Below the pieces are notes generated by a model. It had not been told where the DNA came from. It made no database searches and saw nothing but the letters and a program-made list of their open reading frames with translations. Positions 37,916 to 48,239 of a stretch of 64,000 nucleotides of DNA are shown piece after piece. How positions within the stretch are numbered: position 1 is the stretch's first letter; each line of letters opens with the position of its first letter. The translations under genes were made by a program, and so were the position numbers. The stretch covers positions 248,001-312,000 of the forward strand of contig NZ_CP133838.1 in the NCBI RefSeq assembly GCF_031432975.1. The letters run 5' to 3'. The stretch comes from Buttiauxella selenatireducens. Its GTDB lineage: Bacteria; Pseudomonadota; Gammaproteobacteria; Enterobacterales; Enterobacteriaceae.

Positions 37916-39238
37916 ATGAAACCATTAAAAGTTGTCACGCTCGGCGGGGGTTCCGGCTACACGCCAGAACTAATTGATGGATTTATCAGAAGGCATGCAG
38001 AACTCCCGGTCAGTGAATTCTGGTTGGTGGATATCGAATCAGGTCGTGAAAAGCTGGAAATTGTCGGGAAACTCGCCCAACGCATGGTGAAAAAGTCGGG
38101 CATCCCGATGACGGTTCATCTCACAACGGACCGCAAGCAGGCGCTGAAAGATGCCGATTTTGTCACCACGCAAATTCGCGTCGGGCAACTGGCAGCACGC
38201 ATTCAGGATGAAAAAATCCCGCTGCATTATGGCGTGCTGGGCCAGGAAACTACCGGCCCCGGCGGGTTTATGAAGGCGCAACGCACCATTCCGGTTCTGC
38301 TGGATGTGTGTAAAGAGATGGAAACCCTGTGCCCGGATGCGTGGCTGATCAACTTTACCAATCCGGCGGGCATCGTCACCGAAGCGATTGCAAAACACAG
38401 CACCATTAAATCGCTGGGGATTTGCAGCGGTGCTAACAGCATGATGATGGATGTAGCCAAAGCTTACGGCGTGGGCCGCGAAGCCATTGATGCGCGAGTC
38501 ATGGGGCTAAATCATCTGATTTTTGCCGACCGGATTACGTTGTATGGCGAAGATGTCACCGCTGATTTTATTGAAAAACTAGCCCAGGGCGTGAGCGACA
38601 ACAAGCTCAAAAACATCCCCGATATTGGGCTGCCCGCCGAGTTTATCCGCGCACTAAATTTTTACCCGCTCTCCTATTTAAAATATTTCTGGTTAAACCA
38701 GGAAATGGTGCAGCACGAACTCGAAGAATTACGCAACGGCGGCACGCGCGGCGAACGTTCGCTGCAAATTGAAAAGAGCCTGTTTGATATTTATCGCAAC
38801 CCAGAACTTTGCGAAAAACCACCAGAATTATCCAGCCGTGGCGGCGCATATTATTCCGACACTGCCTGCTCGATTATTAGCTCGATTTATAACAACAAAA
38901 AAGAAGTGCACGTGGTCAACACCACGAATCGCGGAACCACGCCTGATTTACCCGATGACGCGGTGATTGAAACCAATGCGGTGATCGATAAGCAAGGCGC
39001 ACGCCCGCTGGCTTACGGGCGCTTACCGGCGCGTATCCGCGGGCTAATTCAGAGCGTAAAAGCTTTCGAAGAGTTAACGGTTGAAGCGGCAATTACTGGC
39101 AATAAACACACCGCGTTGCTGGCGCTGGCGGCACACCCGCTGGTGCCATCGGTGGCGGTCGCGGAAAATATTCTCAAAGATTATTTAGCCGCTAACCGGG
39201 ATTTCTTACCGCAATATTCACTTTCCACGGATGAATAA
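37916..39238 (+). CDS. GH4 6-phospho-beta-glucosidase (LicH/ChbF-like)
   Basis: A 440-aa NAD+-dependent family 4 glycosidase: LGGGSGYTPELIDGF at the N-terminus, LGQETTGPGGFMKA, INFTNPAGIVTEA, and the metal-binding region GICSGANSMMM and MGLNHLIFADR. The NFTNPAGIVTEA form is that of 6-phospho-beta-glucosidases such as LicH and ChbF. It cleaves a phosphorylated beta-glucoside, presumably delivered by the EIIC encoded 24 bp downstream. It differs clearly from the other GH4 gene at 22386. Confidence 0.88.
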   Translation: MKPLKVVTLGGGSGYTPELIDGFIRRHAELPVSEFWLVDIESGREKLEIVGKLAQRMVKKSGIPMTVHLTTDRKQALKDADFVTTQIRVGQLAARIQDEKIPLHYGVLGQETTGPGGFMKAQRTIPVLLDVCKEMETLCPDAWLINFTNPAGIVTEAIAKHSTIKSLGICSGANSMMMDVAKAYGVGREAIDARVMGLNHLIFADRITLYGEDVTADFIEKLAQGVSDNKLKNIPDIGLPAEFIRALNFYPLSYLKYFWLNQEMVQHELEELRNGGTRGERSLQIEKSLFDIYRNPELCEKPPELSSRGGAYYSDTACSIISSIYNNKKEVHVVNTTNRGTTPDLPDDAVIETNAVIDKQGARPLAYGRLPARIRGLIQSVKAFEELTVEAAITGNKHTALLALAAHPLVPSVAVAENILKDYLAANRDFLPQYSLSTDE

Positions 39239-39261
39239 TTTTCTTTTAAAAGGGATATTTC

Positions 39262-40512
39262 ATGCAACATTTTCTGGAAAACAAAGTCATTCCCGTCTTA
39301 ATGAAGATAGGCAATAACGTTATTCTGGTGGCGATACGTAACGGTATCGCCTTTACGTTGCCGTTTATTATTGCCGGAAGCCTGTTCCTGATTGTGGCGA
39401 ATTTACCCATCCCCGGCTGGCATGAGTTTTTAGGCAGTTATGCGAATAAACTCAGCGTTCCGGTGCAGGCGACATTTGGCGCAATCGGGTTAATTGCCGC
39501 CATCGGCATTAGCTATAATCTGGCGAAACAATACAACCTCGATGGGCTAAGCTGTTGCTGTATTACCGTGTCGGTCTTTATTCTCGCCCAGCTGGATAGC
39601 CAGTATAAAATCAACGTCGATAATTTTGGGGCCGCGGGATTATTCTCAGCCATCATATTGTCGATATTCACGGTTTATACCGTGCGGTTTTTTATCACTC
39701 ACAAAATCTATATTCGTATGCCGGAAGGCGTTCCTCCCGCCGTGCTGCAATCGTTTATCAGCCTGGTGCCTGCGGTGGTTTGCCTGGCGCTGGTGTGGTT
39801 TGTGCGCGTGATTCTGGATTTTGATATCAACGGCTTCTTTACCCTTATCCTCAGCCCGCTGGTGCACGGTTTAGATACGCTGCCAGGAATGCTCATTCTG
39901 GTGGCACTGATTTCGCTGCTGTGGAGCTGCGGGATCCATGGAACCAACGTGCTTTCCGGGATTACCAGCCCGATATTCCTGAAGTTTATTGCCGAAAATA
40001 CCCAGGCTTATCTCAGCGGCCAACCCGTTCCCCATATTACCGCTGAAGGGTTTTATAACTTCTTTATCTGCGCGGGCGGTTCGGGCGCCACAATGGGGTT
40101 AGTGCTGGCAATGCTGTTATCGAAAAGCCGTTACTACAAATCCATTGGCCGCGTCTCGTTTGGCCCGTCGATTTTCTGTATTAACGAGCCTGTTATTTTT
40201 GGCGTGCCGATGGTGCTCAACCCGATAATGATGTTCCCGCTCATTGTGGCGCCACTGGTAATTTGTACCTGTTCTTATTTGCTGATGGATTTCGGCATTA
40301 TTGGCAGGCCAGTATTCCAGATCCCCTGGACGATGCCGCCGATTCTTAACGCCTATTTCGCCACAGGCGGGAACATTCCTGCGGCAATTTGGTCAGGCTG
40401 CATGATTGTTATTTCTACAATAATCTATTATCCGTTCTTCAGAATAATGGAAGTGAAACAGTTGGCTATCGAAGCACAGGAAGCAGAATTGACGGCTGAA
40501 GTGGTACACTAA
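39262..40512 (+). CDS. PTS lactose/cellobiose-family EIIC permease
   Basis: A 416-aa membrane component with about ten TM segments, of the Lac/Chb family (CelB/ChbC type). Visible are VAIRNGIAFTLPFIIAGSLF, LLWSCGIHGTNVLSGI and the family-typical FGPSIFCINEPVIFGVPMVLNP, with the INEPV-x-FG substrate loop. No EIIA or EIIB gene is adjacent, so it must recruit those from elsewhere (for example a chb locus). Likely imports a beta-glucoside for the upstream GH4 enzyme. Confidence 0.87.
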   Translation: MQHFLENKVIPVLMKIGNNVILVAIRNGIAFTLPFIIAGSLFLIVANLPIPGWHEFLGSYANKLSVPVQATFGAIGLIAAIGISYNLAKQYNLDGLSCCCITVSVFILAQLDSQYKINVDNFGAAGLFSAIILSIFTVYTVRFFITHKIYIRMPEGVPPAVLQSFISLVPAVVCLALVWFVRVILDFDINGFFTLILSPLVHGLDTLPGMLILVALISLLWSCGIHGTNVLSGITSPIFLKFIAENTQAYLSGQPVPHITAEGFYNFFICAGGSGATMGLVLAMLLSKSRYYKSIGRVSFGPSIFCINEPVIFGVPMVLNPIMMFPLIVAPLVICTCSYLLMDFGIIGRPVFQIPWTMPPILNAYFATGGNIPAAIWSGCMIVISTIIYYPFFRIMEVKQLAIEAQEAELTAEVVH

Positions 40513-40544
40513 CGGCCCGATAACAACGCTGGAAATGAATCCCG

Positions 40545-41273
40545 ATGGTTGCGCGATACAGAGAAATTAAACACAGTATTCAGGAAGATATCCTCAGCCA
40601 GCGTTACCGGGTCGGTGAGAAAATCCCTTCCGAAAGAGAACTCGCGGTGCAATATGGCGTGACGCGAGTGACGTTGCAAAAGGCGATGAATCTTCTTGAA
40701 CAGGAAGGGTTTATCGAGCGTATTCATGGCAAAGGGATGTTTGTCACAAAAGTGATTGAAGACAATGTCTACATGCTCAATAGCGGCACCGGAGATTCAA
40801 TTTTAGGCTTTTCCCGCGAGTTTGGTCAGCAGGCGAAAATCACCAGCCAGCTTATTTCCCATCAGCTCATTCTCGCCCCGCAGCCCATCGCGGGGCAGTT
40901 GGAAATGCAGGCCAATCAGCAGGTTCATTTTATTCGCCGGGTGCGTTTAATCGACGATGTTCCGGTGCTAATTGAAGACTCGTGGATTAATAGCGAGGTT
41001 ATTGCCGCCATCCCCGAAACTGTGCTTGAACACGGTTCGTTGTATCAATACATCGAAGAGCTGACCGGCAAAAAAATTAAGTTTTACAACTCGGTTATTG
41101 AAGGCGATTTATTCAGCAAAGACCTTGCCGATTTGCTGTCAATAGCCGCTGGTTTGCCGATGCTGAAAGTCTCTGGCGTGACTAAATTAGAAGACGGCAC
41201 GGCATTTAACTATTCCGTCAGTTATAACCGCGCGGATATGTTTAAGATTAAAAATAGCTGGGTGGGGAAATAG
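40545..41273 (+). CDS. GntR/UTRA family transcriptional regulator
   Basis: A 242-aa HutC-subfamily regulator. The winged HTH spans residues 5-70 (GEKIPSERELAVQYGVTRVT and QEGFIERIHGKGMFVT) and a UTRA ligand-binding domain residues 90-235 (PVLIEDSWINSEVI, FNYSVSYNRADMFKI). It follows the EIIC gene by 32 bp and probably represses the GH4-EIIC-regulator operon in the absence of a phosphoglucoside. Confidence 0.88.
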   Translation: MVARYREIKHSIQEDILSQRYRVGEKIPSERELAVQYGVTRVTLQKAMNLLEQEGFIERIHGKGMFVTKVIEDNVYMLNSGTGDSILGFSREFGQQAKITSQLISHQLILAPQPIAGQLEMQANQQVHFIRRVRLIDDVPVLIEDSWINSEVIAAIPETVLEHGSLYQYIEELTGKKIKFYNSVIEGDLFSKDLADLLSIAAGLPMLKVSGVTKLEDGTAFNYSVSYNRADMFKIKNSWVGK

Positions 41274-42402: not shown

Positions 42403-42960
42403 TTATTCCCCAAGTTCTTTGCCCAACCATGCCACCAGTGCGATGCTATCCACCGGTTTGCCCTGCTCCACGGTATAAACCGATCCCAGTGACATAGGCT
42501 GTGCGTTATTTGCCAGAGCCAATAATTCCGGCAGGTATTCTTCACCGGGATGGCCTTCGCGGCGTTCATCGAGTCTTTGCGCGTAACGCTGTACGGCGAG
42601 ATGCCCTGGGATGTGGTTCCAGATTTCCACCACCCGCGTGATCCCTGCCTGTTCAAGATAGCGTTCCAGCGCTTCTTTGGGCTGGAAACCAAACCAGGCG
42701 TCGATAATAAATACGCATTGTTGCGGGCTGTCGGCGACAATCGACCAAATCACCTCATAGGCGGCGCACCCGAGACGCCGATTAAACGGCCTGTCAATGT
42801 TATCGAACTGCGCCATAAAAGGCTCTTTGATACCGTCGATGGTCAGTACGGGGAGCGCAAAATGCTCGGACAATAAGCGTGCGACGGTGCTTTTACCCGA
42901 GGCCGGAACACCGTTCACAAGTACCACCGTTTTGCCCTGTGTTCGTGAAGTCTGGCTCAT
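42403..42960 (-). CDS. P-loop ATPase/kinase of unknown substrate
   Basis: A 185-aa nucleotide kinase-like protein with the Walker A motif LVNGVPASGKSTVARLL near residue 14, a Walker-B-like FIIDAWFG near 98, and the lid-like RYAQRLDERREGHPG near 132. It is the last gene of the phosphofructokinase/PTS operon; its ATG overlaps the EIIA stop (ATGA). It could phosphorylate a sugar or pathway intermediate; nothing in the sequence fixes the substrate. Confidence 0.75.
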   Translation of the reverse strand: MSQTSRTQGKTVVLVNGVPASGKSTVARLLSEHFALPVLTIDGIKEPFMAQFDNIDRPFNRRLGCAAYEVIWSIVADSPQQCVFIIDAWFGFQPKEALERYLEQAGITRVVEIWNHIPGHLAVQRYAQRLDERREGHPGEEYLPELLALANNAQPMSLGSVYTVEQGKPVDSIALVAWLGKELGE

Positions 42961-43394
42961 AATATTGCGATCACCTCTTCCTTAGCTTTTGCCCGGCGGA
43001 GTCTTGCCATCACATCGTCATCACCCAATAAATTCACTATCGCGCGGATGCCTTCTTCAATGTGTTGGTTGCTGTCTTTGGCTGCAAACATAATGACGAT
43101 GTCGGCTTTGTCGCTATTGGCAAAAGCAATCGGTTCTTCGAGCAACACCATGCTGAAGCAATTTTTCATTACGCCGCATTCCGGGCGAGCATGGGGCATA
43201 GCAACGCCTTCTTCAAAAACGTAATACGCGCCATGCTCCAGAGTGTTATTAATCACTGCCTGGTAATAGGAAGGCAGGATATAACCGTTATCAACTAGCG
43301 GCTGCGCCGCAAGTTTAATCACCTTTTGCCAGTCCGTTTCACGCACGCCAACTTGAATTGCCTGCGCTTCAATTAATAATTCTTTAATAGCCAT
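42957..43394 (-). CDS. PTS EIIA component (mannitol/fructose fold, ascorbate-type)
   Basis: A 145-aa EIIA protein starting MAIKELLIEAQAIQVGV. The phosphohistidine lies in VFEEGVAMPHARPECG near residue 66, and the C-terminal LLGDDDVMARLRRAKAKEEV helix is typical of SgaA/UlaC-like EIIA. A GTG one codon earlier is possible. It would pass phosphate to the EIIB encoded upstream in the same operon. It is 9 bp downstream of a small hypothetical gene. Confidence 0.88.
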   Translation of the reverse strand: MAIKELLIEAQAIQVGVRETDWQKVIKLAAQPLVDNGYILPSYYQAVINNTLEHGAYYVFEEGVAMPHARPECGVMKNCFSMVLLEEPIAFANSDKADIVIMFAAKDSNQHIEEGIRAIVNLLGDDDVMARLRRAKAKEEVIAIL

Positions 43395-43403
43395 CACCAG
43401 TCC

Positions 43404-43673
43404 TTAGATGTTTTTACGAATATGATTTCGCAGCTCATCAATTTTAATAAATAACGCATCAATATGCTGACGGTGCGTTTTACTCTTCGCGTAAACTTGT
43501 AACGCCTGGTTATAGCGCAACATAAGTGATTTCTGAGTTTCGCCGTTATTGGGGTTTTCCGTTAGTCTATTTTCCAGTGCTGTTAATTCAGTTTCAATTT
43601 GAATAGCCTGAATATCATATTGCGCCGATTCTGAATTATCTTTATGGAAAAGTTTTTTTAAAGATCCAAACAT
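43404..43673 (-). CDS. Small hypothetical protein in the PTS operon
   Basis: An 89-aa charged helical protein starting MFGSLKKLFHKDNSESAQYD, followed by a helical region with heptad-like spacing (IQAIQIETELTALENRL) and a C-terminal helix ending LRNHIRKNI. There are no Cys or catalytic signatures. I do not recognise the family. Its position between aldolase (68 bp upstream) and EIIA (9 bp downstream) suggests co-translation with the operon, possibly as a scaffold or regulator. Confidence 0.65.
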   Translation of the reverse strand: MFGSLKKLFHKDNSESAQYDIQAIQIETELTALENRLTENPNNGETQKSLMLRYNQALQVYAKSKTHRQHIDALFIKIDELRNHIRKNI

Positions 43674-43741
43674 AGCTCGCTCCCGCCCGACGATTGCCGT
43701 GCAACCAGGGTTACAATAAAGAGTAGAGGATAACGCTTAGC

Positions 43742-44584
43742 TTATTTAAATAATGCGATCTTTTCGATTAATACCGCAGCTACCGCATCATTTGCCGGAA
43801 TTAAAAATTTACGCACGCTGTCGTTCACTTTGCCCTTCTCGAAGGTTTCTTTGCAGTGCCCAACCCACTGCACGTTCATTTCAGTGCCGACGTTCACTTT
43901 GTCGATGCCACCCGCGACCGCGCGACGCATATCTTCATCACTGACGCCTGTTCCACCGTGGAGCACCAGCGGGGTTTTGGTCACTTCGCTGATATCCGCA
44001 AGACGTTGGTGTTGAATTTGCGCTTTACCGGTATACAGGCCGTGCACCGTGCCAACGGAAACAGCCAACATATCGACACCCGTTTCATCCACAAAACGTT
44101 TGGCATCTTCGGTGGTGGTGAAGGCAATATCTTCCATGGCCACGGATTTACCATCTTCTGAGCCGCCAATGGCACCGAGTTCTGCTTCTACAGAAATATT
44201 ACGTGGCCGGGCGATATCAATAACTTTGCGGGTGTTGGCAATATTGTCGGCCATATCCAGATGTGAGCCGTCATACATCACTGAGCTAAAGCCCGCGTCT
44301 ATAGCCGTTTTAATGGATTCAATATCTGAACAGTGATCCAAATGCAAACAGGTCGGTATTTGTTGGCTTTCTGATAAAGAACGAATCGAATCGACTAATA
44401 AACGATAACCTAAATACTCAGCGGTCCCCGTCGAGATTTGAATCATTAACGGGCTGTTGGTCGCTTTGGCGGCTTTGAAATAAGCGGGTAACATTTCCAG
44501 GCAATGTAAATTAAAGGAACCTACTGCTTTGAAATTACGTTGCTTCGCCACCTGCAATAAATCAGGGAAGTTATAGAGACTCAT
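43742..44584 (-). CDS. Class II fructose/tagatose-bisphosphate aldolase family protein
   Basis: A 280-aa TIM-barrel aldolase, start MSLYNFPDLLQVAKQRNFKA. Zinc-site residues appear in CLHLDHCSDIESIKTAIDAG (Asp and His near 82), SVEAELGAIGG, VGTVHGLYTG and VLHGGTGVSDED; NVGTEMN binds the substrate phosphate. Size and motifs fit the KbaY/GatY/AgaY group. Substrate would be a ketose-1,6-bisphosphate made by the phosphofructokinase-like protein of the same operon. The start overlaps the EIIC gene by 14 bp. Confidence 0.87.
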   Translation of the reverse strand: MSLYNFPDLLQVAKQRNFKAVGSFNLHCLEMLPAYFKAAKATNSPLMIQISTGTAEYLGYRLLVDSIRSLSESQQIPTCLHLDHCSDIESIKTAIDAGFSSVMYDGSHLDMADNIANTRKVIDIARPRNISVEAELGAIGGSEDGKSVAMEDIAFTTTEDAKRFVDETGVDMLAVSVGTVHGLYTGKAQIQHQRLADISEVTKTPLVLHGGTGVSDEDMRRAVAGGIDKVNVGTEMNVQWVGHCKETFEKGKVNDSVRKFLIPANDAVAAVLIEKIALFK

Positions 44585-45938
44585 GTGCTTTTTCCTCTTG
44601 AGGTTTGGTTGATTTGCCATTCACGAACCAGGCGATAAGCGCCACGAACAGGATAAATACGCCGACAAACGTCCAGTTGTTCTGGAAGACGTGCCCCAAA
44701 ATCAGGCCGCTACTAATGACATCGGAATCGCTGAAGGTCACGCCGGTGAAACCATAGCTTTCCAGCATTGGAACCAGTATTGCGGGCAGGAAGGTAATGA
44801 ACAGGCCATGAACGACGCCCCCGATAATTGCCCCGCGTCTACCGCCCATTGCGTTACCGAAAATCCCTGCAGTACCACCGGCAAAGAAGTTGGTTAACAG
44901 TCCTGGCAGGATCATCGCCAGTCCAAACATTGGGAAGACAATCATGCCGATGATGGAACCTGCGGTGGTGGCGAGGAAGCCGACAATCACGGCATTTGGG
45001 GCGTAGGGGAACAGCACCGGGCAGTCCAGAGCGGGTTTGGCGTCTGGCACGATGCGCATAGCGATACCACGGAATGCTGGCACCAGTTCGTTTAACAGCA
45101 GGCGCACACCGCTATAAAGCACGAATACCCCGGCAACAAACTGTATCGCCTGCATAAAGGCAAACATCAGGTAATTCACACCGTTGGAATACTGGCTGAT
45201 ATATTCCGGGCCTGCTGCCAGTGCCGGGATGAGGTACATCGGGATCATCACCACAGCCATCGACAAGTAGGTGTCTTGCAGGAATTTAAAGTTATCCGGT
45301 AACACTAAATCTTCGGTCGACTTAGAGCCTTTACCCACCACTTTTGCGACCGCCGCCTGAACCAGGTAGCCAATAGTGCAAAAGTGCCCAAGCGCAACGT
45401 CGTCAGAACCGGTAATACGGCGCACCACGGGTTGAGCGAGTGCGGGCATAAGCACCGCCATAATCCCACCGAAAATTCCGCCGGTCAGAATCAATGGCAG
45501 TCCGGTCAGCCCGGCTTTGTAGCCGATAACTGCCCCAATGGTGGCCATCCACAGCAAAGCCTGGCCGGTAAGAAAGATATATTTAAATGGTGTGATACGG
45601 GCAATGATGATGTTGACGATAAAGATCACCATCAGCGTGAGCGCCACTTCAGAGCCCAACTCGCGGTTTGCCAGGCCTGCAATCGCTGCGACATCGGTGA
45701 TGTAGCCTTTCATGCCGAAGCCGTGGGTGAAGATATCGTTCAGGAAAGTCAGGGTATCAACAATAATGTTGATACCTGCCATCATGATTAAAAAGCCAAG
45801 CAGCGTTTTAAATGTGCCTTCCGCGACTTTCCCTTTCGATTTTTTCTGCAATAAAAGACCGAGCATAGCGATAAAGGCAATCAGTATTGATGCCTGTCCT
45901 AGCAGGTCTTTAACAATAAAGTTAATGATGCTATTCAT
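44571..45938 (-). CDS. PTS EIIC component, UlaA/SgaT (ascorbate) family
   Basis: A 455-aa permease starting MNSIINFIVKDLLGQASILI, with about eleven TM segments and the UlaA-family features GIFGNAMGGRRGAIIGGVVHG and the LFPYAPNAVIVGFL segment. The family transports L-ascorbate or related ligands; no UlaG lactonase or UlaD-F gene is present, so the ligand is likely different. The ATG at 45938 overlaps the EIIB gene by 8 bp; a TTG two codons earlier is less likely. Confidence 0.88.
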   Translation of the reverse strand: MNSIINFIVKDLLGQASILIAFIAMLGLLLQKKSKGKVAEGTFKTLLGFLIMMAGINIIVDTLTFLNDIFTHGFGMKGYITDVAAIAGLANRELGSEVALTLMVIFIVNIIIARITPFKYIFLTGQALLWMATIGAVIGYKAGLTGLPLILTGGIFGGIMAVLMPALAQPVVRRITGSDDVALGHFCTIGYLVQAAVAKVVGKGSKSTEDLVLPDNFKFLQDTYLSMAVVMIPMYLIPALAAGPEYISQYSNGVNYLMFAFMQAIQFVAGVFVLYSGVRLLLNELVPAFRGIAMRIVPDAKPALDCPVLFPYAPNAVIVGFLATTAGSIIGMIVFPMFGLAMILPGLLTNFFAGGTAGIFGNAMGGRRGAIIGGVVHGLFITFLPAILVPMLESYGFTGVTFSDSDVISSGLILGHVFQNNWTFVGVFILFVALIAWFVNGKSTKPQEEKAHESL

Positions 45939-46245
45939 GGTCAAATACCTTCACATTGCGGTCTTTTAAAAAGGCGACAATCTTTTGTTCGATCTCATCT
46001 TTATCGGTGAGTCGGTGCAAGACAATGACGCGTTTTATTTCTTCCTCGCTGGCGTCAGCCGTTAAAATATCAGCAAAGGTTTTTTGCGTTAAAATAATGT
46101 CAGATTTAAACGCACCCGCTTCTGAAACTGTGGTGTGATCAATTTCTGCAGGAATTTGAAGTTTTTTAAGTACCGCCGTTGCTGCCATTTCAATGGCAAA
46201 ACTGGAACCTAAACCGCAGCCACATACACAAAGAATTTTAAGCAT
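45931..46245 (-). CDS. PTS EIIB component, SgaB/UlaB-like
   Basis: A 104-aa EIIB protein, start MLKILCVCGCGLGSSFAIEM. The phosphocysteine is the second or third Cys of the CVCGCGLGSS loop; the UlaB form is C-x-x-G-x-G-S-S. The ATG at 46245 has GAGGAG upstream. It is 11 bp after the phosphofructokinase-like gene and overlaps the EIIC gene. Confidence 0.88.
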   Translation of the reverse strand: MLKILCVCGCGLGSSFAIEMAATAVLKKLQIPAEIDHTTVSEAGAFKSDIILTQKTFADILTADASEEEIKRVIVLHRLTDKDEIEQKIVAFLKDRNVKVFDHE

Positions 46246-46256
46246 TGAAAGTCTCC

Positions 46257-47237
46257 TCAAATAATATTGAGCTGCTTCGCTAATTTATAATGATGCCCTT
46301 CGGTGTCGACGAGGCGTTTTTGCATACTGATTAAATCTATAGGGATCGGTTTGTTACTTGAATTAATAATAATGGCTTTATTTCTCATGCCGGACTGAAT
46401 ACAACGGACGACTTCACCCGCCATAATGGTGCCCTGATAGATTTCCTCGCAGGTTGGGTCACCGTTACGCAGGCTATAGCCAATAATTGATTTACGAATA
46501 CGCACGCCAATTTTTGGTTCGAGCTGTTTAATCATGGTATCAATCGCCCCCTGAAAGCCGGGGGAATACTCTTTGGTGTAACCTTCTGAACAAAGAATCA
46601 CGACGCTATTTTGTGATTCAAGCCGTGAAGTAATTTTCCCTGCGAGATCGCTAAGCGAATGTTGGCTCTCGGGTATTAACGCAAAATCTGCGTTACTTTT
46701 AATTGCCGATTGTAACGTCAGTTCGCCGCAGTAGCCTCCCAGCAATTCGATCATAAAAACACGCCCAGGTAATGCTCGTCCCGTATTGCGCAACTTGGTC
46801 ACTTCTTTTATGACCTGTTCGCAGGCAGTGGAAAAACCGATGGTGTAATCGCTGCCGTAAACGTCATTGTCGATGGTCATGCCGACGCCAAAACAATTAA
46901 CGCCATACTCACTCAGGTTATTCAGAAACTGTAATGAACCATCGCCACCCGCCATGATAAGCACATCGATATGCAGGGTTTTTAATTGTTTGGCAAGGGT
47001 TTCATATTCACAGTCCATTAATTTACGGTTGGTTCGACCTGAAGACATAATCGGAATAGAAGCGACTGAAAAATCCACCAGATCCCGTACGGAGATCGCC
47101 TGGTGATTGTTCTGTAATAAACCAGGAATACCCCCGTTAAATAAAATGATTTCTGCCTGAGCAAGTCGGGAAACCTGGAAAACGAAGTTATTAATCCCTG
47201 TGACATCACCGCCGCTAATTACCATGCCGATTCTCAT
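46257..47237 (-). CDS. ATP-type 6-phosphofructokinase-like sugar-phosphate kinase
   Basis: A 326-aa PfkA-superfamily kinase, first gene of its operon. Seen are the N-terminal loop MVISGGDVTGINNFV, MAGGDGSLQFL, catalytic MTIDNDVYGSDYTIGF (Asp of TIDND) and FMIELLGGYCGELTLQ. Two normally strict positions differ: the residue before TIDND is Met (Gly in ATP enzymes, Lys in PPi enzymes), and the MGR motif is LGG. This suggests a ketohexose-phosphate other than fructose-6-phosphate. The start MRIGMVISGGD at 47237 follows the family; longer frames are rejected. Confidence 0.82.
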   Translation of the reverse strand: MRIGMVISGGDVTGINNFVFQVSRLAQAEIILFNGGIPGLLQNNHQAISVRDLVDFSVASIPIMSSGRTNRKLMDCEYETLAKQLKTLHIDVLIMAGGDGSLQFLNNLSEYGVNCFGVGMTIDNDVYGSDYTIGFSTACEQVIKEVTKLRNTGRALPGRVFMIELLGGYCGELTLQSAIKSNADFALIPESQHSLSDLAGKITSRLESQNSVVILCSEGYTKEYSPGFQGAIDTMIKQLEPKIGVRIRKSIIGYSLRNGDPTCEEIYQGTIMAGEVVRCIQSGMRNKAIIINSSNKPIPIDLISMQKRLVDTEGHHYKLAKQLNII

Positions 47238-47657
47238 GACGCTTGCCTCGTTTATTTTTCTTGCAGCTATTTTTCTCTTTAAACAAGACCTCGATTTGCA
47301 ATGAATGTCACAAAATTGGGATTCATTAGTCGAGGCAGAGGATTGACAGGTGGTTTTTATAAGCAAAATTTGCGAGTTGAATCACAAATAAAGATTGGTG
47401 AACTATCGAATGGTAGGAGGAAAAATTTCCTATATTTCAAAGGATTAATCTAAGTGGCTAAAAAATAAAAAACTCCAGCGATATTTCGACTGAGAACAGA
47501 GTTTATCAGCTTTCAAAAATGTGACTACTCACGCATTTTTCTGCGGAATAAAGGGAAAGAAACTTATTAAGTAGCGTAAAAGAAATTGGGGGAAATCGAA
47601 GGGAGGCGGAAAAGCATGAAACGCTTGTCCGCCATTTCATTCAGGCCAGATAGGATA
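47238..47657. other. 420-bp intergenic region upstream of the phosphofructokinase operon
   Basis: No coding frame of note. It is AT-rich and holds the CRP-like site at 47371, a second imperfect TGTGA/TCACG pair with short spacing at about 47520-47533, and the presumed promoter of the minus-strand operon. The right end is the 3' flank of the acetyltransferase gene. Confidence 0.55.
47371..47386. promoter_or_regulatory. CRP-like site upstream of the phosphofructokinase/PTS operon
   Basis: TGCGAGTTGAATCACA matches TGTGA-N6-TCACA with one mismatch and lies 134 bp before the first gene of the minus-strand operon. It suggests catabolite control. No specific regulator gene is adjacent. Confidence 0.6.
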
Positions 47658-48239
47658 TCAACGAGAAAAAGCCAACTTGTCCTCTTCATTAATTTCACGC
47701 AGCACTCGGCATGGCACCCCCGCGGCAACCACGTTTGCGGGAATAGATTTCGTCACCACACTGCCCGCGCCAATCACGCTATTACGGCCAATCGTCACGC
47801 CAGGGTTGATAATAACGCCTGTTCCCAACCAGACGTTGTCTTCAATTGTCACCGGTAAAGAAAACTGCTGTCCGGTGATTCGGATTTCTGGGGCGATCGG
47901 GTGTCCGGCGGTAGAGATTGTCACGTTTGGCGCAACCATCACGTTATCGCCAATTGTTACTGTGGCATCGTCCACCACCACGAAATTAAAGTTGCCGTAA
48001 AAGTTATTGCCGATATGAGTGTGGCTGCCGTAAGCCACGCGAATAGGGGGTTCAATCCAGCAATTTTCGCCCACGCTGCCGAATAATTGCTTGAGCAATT
48101 CTGCGCGGCGAGTTTCTTGCGCTGGGCGCGTCAGGTTGTAGTCGTAGACCAACTCTTTTCCAGCACGGCGTTCTTCTGGTAATCCTTCGCAGTGGTCTGT
48201 GTACAATTCACCGACTTCCATTCTTCTTCTTACTGACAT
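47658..48239 (-). CDS. Sugar O-acetyltransferase (LacA/Maa family)
   Basis: A 193-aa left-handed beta-helix acetyltransferase. It has an N-terminal maltose-acetyltransferase segment (GELYTDHCEGLPEERRAGKE) followed by hexapeptide repeats (VTIGDNVMVAPNVTIS), the catalytic His in STAGHPIAPE, and NVVAAGVPCRVLREI at the end. It acetylates a sugar or thiogalactoside using acetyl-CoA. The ATG at 48239 has AAGGAAC upstream; an ATG six codons later is a weaker alternative. It is probably a single-gene unit. Confidence 0.88.
   Translation of the reverse strand: MSVRRRMEVGELYTDHCEGLPEERRAGKELVYDYNLTRPAQETRRAELLKQLFGSVGENCWIEPPIRVAYGSHTHIGNNFYGNFNFVVVDDATVTIGDNVMVAPNVTISTAGHPIAPEIRITGQQFSLPVTIEDNVWLGTGVIINPGVTIGRNSVIGAGSVVTKSIPANVVAAGVPCRVLREINEEDKLAFSR

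Follow-up and report, generated by a model that had tools for sequence, protein, structure and literature searches.

A candidate ketose-utilization operon of Buttiauxella selenatireducens and a probably new family of small kinases

Introduction

Which sugar, and which enzymatic route, is served by an operon that joins the importer of a phosphotransferase system (PTS), a ketose-bisphosphate aldolase and two candidate kinases? The question is raised by a stretch of 64,000 nucleotides of the Buttiauxella selenatireducens genome (contig NZ_CP133838.1, positions 248,001 to 312,000), here called the window, in which seven open reading frames (ORFs) follow one another on the minus strand from position 47237 down to 42403. 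In order, they encode a phosphofructokinase (PFK)-like kinase, the PTS enzymes EIIB and EIIC, a class II aldolase, a small protein of 89 amino acids (aa) that we call SML, the PTS enzyme EIIA and, as the last gene, a small P-loop kinase of 185 aa that we call KIN. An earlier note on this DNA had described the same gene content, order, strand and coordinates, and all seven ORFs are as it gave them. We consider it likely that the operon serves growth on a ketose through import, second phosphorylation and aldol cleavage, with KIN, the PFK-like enzyme or both as the second kinase. Ketose pathways of this kind are already known, and the operon is probably a new version of them with a new kinase family. 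A literature search reaching few subscription journals listed neither a published description of the operon nor an assigned substrate among its titles and abstract openings.

Gene content and predicted pathway

The operon opens with the PFK-like kinase (46257..47237, minus strand, as are all seven genes; 326 aa), a class A phosphofructokinase with an altered sugar site (PF00365, E 1.2e-58). It is separated by 11 bp from EIIB (45931..46245; 104 aa; PF02302, with a CGCGLGSS motif), which overlaps by 8 bp an EIIC of the GAT/UlaA family (44571..45938; 455 aa; PF03611, E 1.9e-121, 406 bits). The latter overlaps by 14 bp the class II ketose-bisphosphate aldolase (43742..44584; 280 aa; PF01116, E 1.2e-88). 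A gap of 68 bp leads to SML (43404..43673; 89 aa), a conserved protein found in 27 of the 29 family loci described below, and a further 9 bp to EIIA (42957..43394; 145 aa; PF00359, E 2.6e-31, with an MPHARPE motif), which overlaps by 4 bp the gene of KIN (42403..42960; 185 aa), a protein characterized here by alignments, a structure model and a PDB match. The five junctions with overlaps of 4-14 bp or gaps of 9-11 bp bear out the earlier description of genes that overlap or nearly overlap throughout, and the 68-bp gap departs from it. Pfam and NCBIfam matches identify five of the products (PFK, PTS IIB, EIIC-GAT, class II aldolase and PTS EIIA); SML and KIN have only sub-threshold matches. By the ORF list and these matches, none of the seven genes encodes a dehydrogenase, an isomerase or a Ula catabolic enzyme, as the earlier note had also stated, and the operon has no GatZ/KbaZ partner.

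In the pathway that we propose, EIIA, EIIB and EIIC would take up the sugar and phosphorylate it once. The second phosphate would come from KIN, and here also or alternatively from the PFK-like enzyme. The product, a 1,6-bisphosphate of the ketose or a homologous compound, would be cleaved by the class II aldolase to yield dihydroxyacetone phosphate together with a phosphorylated aldehyde, in the simplest case glyceraldehyde 3-phosphate. We infer each of these reactions from the sequence.

The curated models place the importer and the aldolase in broad groups. EIIC scores 822 bits against NF009551, over its cut-off of 657, and of two IIC models named for ascorbate it passes NF006919 (479 vs 380) and misses NF009549 (406 vs 890). 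Use of ascorbate or galactitol was considered and set aside, since the operon has no Ula or Gat catabolic gene, though one ascorbate-named EIIC model was passed. The aldolase passes TIGR00167 (261 bits vs a cut-off of 215.6) and misses the tagatose-1,6-bisphosphate model TIGR01858 (235.6 vs 443.55). Across the loci described below, the motif CG(C/A)GLGSS is present in all 65 clustered IIBs and MPHARPE in 56 of 57 EIIAs, and HLDH and LHGG(T/S)G occur in 56/56 class II aldolases. Other class II motifs are not universal letter for letter (EAELG in 38, VGTVHG in 36 and SV(R/K)KF in 40 of the 56).

Operon types and exchangeable parts

The distribution of the operon was followed from both of its candidate kinases. 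With the PFK-like protein as query, 118 of 198 genomes of the family matched, mostly through housekeeping PfkA only at about 27-33% identity, and close homologues were found in 28 genomes (62-100% identity, the own genome included) in addition to one remnant (G104) and one divergent copy (G141). Apart from the window's own, 29 regions were examined as family loci, of which 17 are of type A, 10 of type B, one of type C (L039) and one a remnant (L038). The type A loci share the gene order of the window and contain a class II aldolase only (17/17). In the type B loci the class II aldolase is absent and a class I aldolase directly follows KIN (10/10, first in L030). The remnant L038 retains a piece of a class I aldolase and gives no KIN match. 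An aldolase-free variant, suggested by the 10 of 29 family loci that have no class II aldolase, was rejected, as all ten have the class I enzyme after KIN.

Searched with KIN, the order gave matches in 10 of 247 genomes and the class in 2 of 369, each count including the own genome. A KIN profile run against contigs of named genomes supplied the named loci, for which the best 80 of 322 relatives were used, with KIN as the bait; a gene was scored as present if tblastn placed it no more than 6 kb from KIN at fixed bit-score limits. Type A (PFK-IIB-IIC-class II aldolase-SML-IIA-KIN) accounts for 54 of the 80, plus L114, and type B for three, plus L122, which is cut by a contig end. Four loci are of type C, in which a divergent SorC regulator is followed by class I aldolase-KIN-IIA-PFK-IIB-IIC-small protein, and five of type D, which is type C minus PFK; ten, from Rhizobium and other Rhizobiales, are of type E and lack the PTS, and two from Rouxiella are truncated immediately past KIN. 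Carriers among these best 80 of 322 include Klebsiella, Serratia, Pantoea, Erwinia, Lonsdalea, Vibrio and Rhizobium, and the operon is also present on contigs of B. noackiae ATCC 51607 and B. agrestis ATCC 33320. The earlier note had proposed a search for the same gene set elsewhere; the order recurs in the 17 other family loci and the set in 54/80 named loci, and this recurrence makes the operon more than a chance assembly. As a separate observation, L114, from Pantoea stewartii, is an otherwise complete type A operon that gives no PFK match.

Each named locus has one class of aldolase: class II in 55, class I in 25, both in none and neither in none. The class I enzymes of types B-E are of the LacD/YihT type (PF01791), with GAKVLK in 16 of 21. 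Their closest solved relative is a DUF2090 protein, followed by YihT/sulfofructose-phosphate and tagatose-diphosphate aldolases, and their best-scoring models are those of tagatose 1,6-diphosphate aldolase, at scores below the cut-offs (the lacD cut-off is not reached). This swap of aldolase class, together with the swap of the PTS for an ABC importer plus a ROK kinase described in the next section, supports a scheme in which import is followed by a second phosphorylation and by cleavage. The earlier note had proposed that a PTS delivers a ketose phosphate, that the PFK makes the bisphosphate and that the aldolase yields triose phosphates. Its three steps gain from these two independent exchanges of parts, whereas the assignment of the bisphosphate to PFK fares less well, that gene being absent from five PTS operons and from Rhizobium, where KIN is kept.

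KIN and its fusion to a sugar kinase in Rhizobium

KIN is present in each operon type seen, and in 28 of the 29 family loci found via PFK (17 of type A, 10 of type B and one of type C), the exception being the remnant. All 28 aligned rows share an invariant PASGK (Walker A), an invariant DAW-GF stretch and several invariant arginines. The structure model is confident (predicted local distance difference test score, pLDDT, 91.8), and its best PDB match by Foldseek is 2rhm, a putative kinase (TM 0.78), with adenylate kinase, APS kinase and gluconokinase as the next-best structural matches. The family is probably new, and we hold the chances that KIN acts as a sugar-phosphate kinase to be about evenly balanced.

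The Rhizobium form gives the strongest hint to its place in the pathway. After the class I aldolase, a single ORF joins a sugar kinase domain of the ROK family (residues 6-280) to a KIN domain (AAA_33, residues 301-421), and this fusion is unbroken in 12 of the 12 Rhizobium and Agrobacterium loci examined, for example L098:8131-9558. The twelve consist of the ten named loci together with those of Agrobacterium salinitolerans and Rhizobium sp. SL42, in which the genes are annotated as 'tagatose-bisphosphate aldolase' and 'ROK family protein'. All twelve also carry an RbsB-type binding protein, a permease and an ATPase near the aldolase, the parts of an ABC sugar importer. A ROK-KIN fusion beside an aldolase and an ABC importer suggests that the ROK kinase can take over the phosphorylation otherwise done by the PTS, and its presence in one polypeptide with KIN hints that KIN performs the next one. 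A gene for an HAD-type phosphatase lies near the SorC regulator in 11/12 of these loci (L098:5388-6056, L132:4535-5206).

SML or a counterpart occurs in 68/68 named loci that have the PTS, and a PTS-linked role would be our guess. The counterpart in types C and D is TPR-like (one of two tested matched TPR, below threshold), and its profile match to SML is modest (E 1.3e-4, probability 54).

Relatives of KIN extend beyond these operons. On a Cryobacterium plasmid, a KIN-like gene (L134:6998-7552, 30% identity) lies beside an annotated aminoglycoside 6-adenylyltransferase with no sugar operon around it, which points to other functions in the wider superfamily. In a collection of plasmids KIN matches 27 records, of which 21 are from Rhizobium, R. 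tropici CIAT 899 among them. The collection also contains CP125156.1, a Klebsiella pneumoniae record of 5.37 Mb that carries fdnG and rhaM and is probably a mislabelled chromosome.

The phosphofructokinase-like enzyme

The PFK-like enzyme is only distantly related to the PfkA of the same genome (27% identity) and misses both curated PfkA models (157 bits vs a cut-off of 371 for TIGR02482; 201 vs 253 for NF002872). The two proteins have the PF00365 family and the catalytic Asp127 in common and differ at four sugar-site positions, where the operon enzyme has Met for Gly124, Leu for Met169, Gly for Arg171 and Tyr for His249; we take residue numbers and roles, including those of Arg171 and His249 at the fructose 6-phosphate site, from E. 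coli and Bacillus PFK. Aligned with Bacillus PFK and the own PfkA, the window's enzyme retains GGDGS, TIDND, Arg162, Glu222, Arg243 and Arg252. Across 83 type A/B and five type C sequences (88 rows, 75 of them distinct, some genomes standing under two locus ids), residue 124 is Met throughout, residue 169 is Leu in 83 and Phe in five, residue 171 is Gly in 81 and Ala in seven, and residue 249 is Tyr in 74 and Phe in 14. The same 88 rows all keep Arg72, Asp127, Asp129, Arg162, Glu222, Arg243 and Arg252. Arg72, Asp103, Asp127 and Asp129 are together retained in 83/83 type A/B rows. The five type C enzymes (L039, L085, L096, L104 and L116) have GGGGS in place of GGDGS and have all lost Asp103, while Asp127 is kept in each. 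For types A and B, our reading is of a sugar site that appears to have been remade with the kinase chemistry not lost. If this is true, a PFK-A paralogue of changed specificity would be a useful model for the remaking of this site in the gatekeeper enzyme of glycolysis. Types A and C are only 29% identical in this protein, so the change at the sugar site is either old and shared or convergent. The effector-site stretch has diverged from that of PfkA by eye. A pyrophosphate-dependent PFK is not supported, as residue 124 is Met and not Lys and residue 104 is Gly, residues whose meaning we presume from known PFKs.

The enzyme is dispensable to the operon: five PTS operons with all the other genes (type D) lack it, and so does the Rhizobium form. 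The five type D genomes encode one PFK each, at a housekeeping-like score (E about 1e-110), the four type C genomes searched two each, and ten Rhizobium genomes one distant homologue each, in ORFs of 412-458 aa. A clade of 22 rows in the KIN tree mixes types C and D and also contains Rhizobium (support 100/100; several inner forks are weak), which implies at least two losses or gains of PFK. Among individual loci, the PFK gene of L036 has an in-frame stop and that of L056 was matched in two pieces.

Which enzyme supplies the second phosphate

These observations lead us to propose, as a tentative view somewhat short of an even chance, that KIN represents a new sugar-phosphate kinase family with no relation to PfkA or PfkB. 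In a modular pathway for ketoses, widespread from Enterobacterales and Vibrio to Rhizobium, KIN would be the second kinase that stays constant while importer and aldolase are exchanged, and the PFK-A paralogue with its remade site would be optional, with more than one loss or gain. If true, a kinase family would gain a function, and the loci would be a clear case of conserved pathway chemistry in which unrelated enzymes are swapped at single steps. Two points weigh against this view: the named loci are the best 80 of 322 and were baited with KIN, such that other contexts may exist, and housekeeping PfkA may substitute where PFK is missing, which would leave the role of KIN open. The latter point belongs to an alternative that we regard as unlikely, in which the PFK-like enzyme alone makes the bisphosphate, housekeeping PfkA covers the types without it, and KIN is otherwise engaged, for example in phosphorylating an unphosphorylated aldehyde product. 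The invariance of Arg72 and the three aspartates in types A and B suits this alternative, as do the single housekeeping PFK kept by the PFK-less Enterobacterales genomes, the one homologue in each of the ten Rhizobium genomes and the acceptance of tagatose 6-phosphate by E. coli PfkA. It is opposed by the retention of KIN in all family loci except the remnant while PFK was lost elsewhere, by the loss of Asp103 from the type C PFKs, and by the fusion of KIN to the first sugar kinase in Rhizobium, which suggests consecutive steps. Less probable again is that the PFK-like protein has become a regulator or scaffold and is no longer a sugar kinase, leaving KIN as the sole second kinase. The changes at residues 124, 169, 171 and 249 in all 88 rows, the loss of Asp103 in type C, the absence of the gene in type D and the divergence of the effector-site stretch are what such a protein might show, yet the seven residues conserved throughout those rows argue against it.

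Candidate substrates

D-tagatose or a close ketohexose is our weak first guess for the substrate. It draws on the binding protein of the Rhizobium form, which is 77% identical to 5dkv of Agrobacterium vitis (also found by phmmer); the structure model of the protein is poor (pLDDT 44.5), and only its sequence-driven top match was used. We take the ligand of 5dkv to be D-tagatose, which neither the title of the entry nor a literature search confirmed, and this weakens the case. The annotation of class I aldolases as tagatose-bisphosphate aldolase points the same way, as annotation only. Growth traits speak against the guess: Cedecea sulfonylureivorans, whose operon is in L061, is tabulated as D-tagatose negative, and for Dryocola boscaweniae, with the operon in L058, the trait is absent according to the text and 'na' in the table (PMC12671600). 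Klebsiella, moreover, has an unrelated tagatose system, tagKTH (PMC10101011), and this would make a second tagatose operon redundant. On the strength of these points, we see about an even prospect that the substrate is instead D-psicose, a sorbose, an L-ketohexose or a plant heptulose (giving dihydroxyacetone phosphate and erythrose 4-phosphate), with a bisphosphate accepted by both aldolase classes. The carriers of the operon include Pantoea, Erwinia, Lonsdalea and Rhizobium, all plant-associated, and class I aldolases of the LacD type have a broad stereochemical range, which also suits a sugar other than tagatose. If the proposed pathway is right, one growth experiment would name the sugar.

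Relation to known systems

Among the closest known systems is the tagKTH-gatY pathway for D-tagatose of Klebsiella and Bacillus licheniformis, in which PTS import is followed by one kinase that forms the 1,6-bisphosphate and by a class II aldolase (PMC10101011). The operon resembles it in the class II aldolase and in the predicted PTS import and phosphorylation to a 1,6-bisphosphate. The same source describes the tagatose EII of Klebsiella as resembling the fructose EII, unlike the GAT-family EIIC of the operon, and cites tagatose 1-phosphate as the product of the B. licheniformis EII (PMC10101011). With the ula PTS for L-ascorbate, the operon shares the GAT/UlaA-family EIIC, which passes NF006919, and separate IIA, IIB and IIC proteins, while it differs in having an aldolase and kinases and no ula catabolic gene, and in missing NF009549. 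The kinase of tagKTH is of the PfkB family and, to our knowledge, neither KIN nor the small protein is part of that system. The gat and aga systems for galactitol and N-acetylgalactosamine have a class II aldolase of the KbaY/GatY/Fba group in common with the operon, which differs in the lack of a dehydrogenase, isomerase and GatZ/KbaZ and in an aldolase that reaches neither the tagatose nor the fructose aldolase equivalog cut-off. The tagatose-6-phosphate branch of the lac operon (LacC/LacD) shares the LacD/YihT-type class I aldolase with types B-E; its kinase, LacC, is a PfkB kinase, whereas the operon has KIN and/or the PFK-A-like enzyme.

Upstream region and genomic setting

Upstream of the operon, within 47238-47660, there are three CRP-like sites on the minus strand, whose half-sites are conserved from Enterobacterales to Vibrio when 25 of the 58 upstream regions are aligned (the L056 row is shifted). 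The nearest, TGTGACATTCATTGCA (47297..47312), has a left half conserved in the 25 rows and a right half that differs in the type B and Vibrio rows; TGTGATTCAACTCGCA (47371..47386) and TGCGTGAGTAGTCACA (47520..47535) have one and two mismatches, respectively, to TGTGAN6TCACA. Over the whole window, 28 CRP-like matches stand against 25.9 expected, which is chance level and tells against the sites by number, so that only their conservation across genera counts as evidence. With that conservation, the operon is probably under cAMP-CRP control, a judgement made from the sites themselves. Scans for promoters and terminators gave chance-level results, and no Rfam match at gathering score was found in or near the operon for a regulatory RNA. 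No dedicated regulator adjoins the operon in the window; types C-E have an adjacent SorC-type regulator.

The operon lies between regions of homology to rhaT/sodA/rhaR (at about 26.5-30.3 kb of the window) and fdhD/fdoGHI/fdhE (about 48.8-55.3 kb). The earlier note had it replace the frv locus found between rha and fdh genes in E. coli; the position is right, and 'replaces' is loose, as the interval has other genes as well. Megablast of the operon against 5426 E. coli genomes returned zero matches. In blastn with the IIC-IIB-PFK stretch, 936 E. coli genomes matched, with 11% query coverage in the top rows, at a gene annotated as ascorbate EIIC, and none reached 80% coverage. The genome of 5.22 Mb, a single contig, has elsewhere a housekeeping-type PfkA, three more class II aldolases and three more GAT-family EIICs. 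The rha-to-fdh interval also contains a cellobiose-type PTS EIIC, a GntR regulator and, by eye, a CheV look-alike. Past this CheV-like gene, at 37916-41273, the cellobiose-type EIIC, the GntR/UTRA regulator and a 440-aa gene are each matched at 82-95% in L012.

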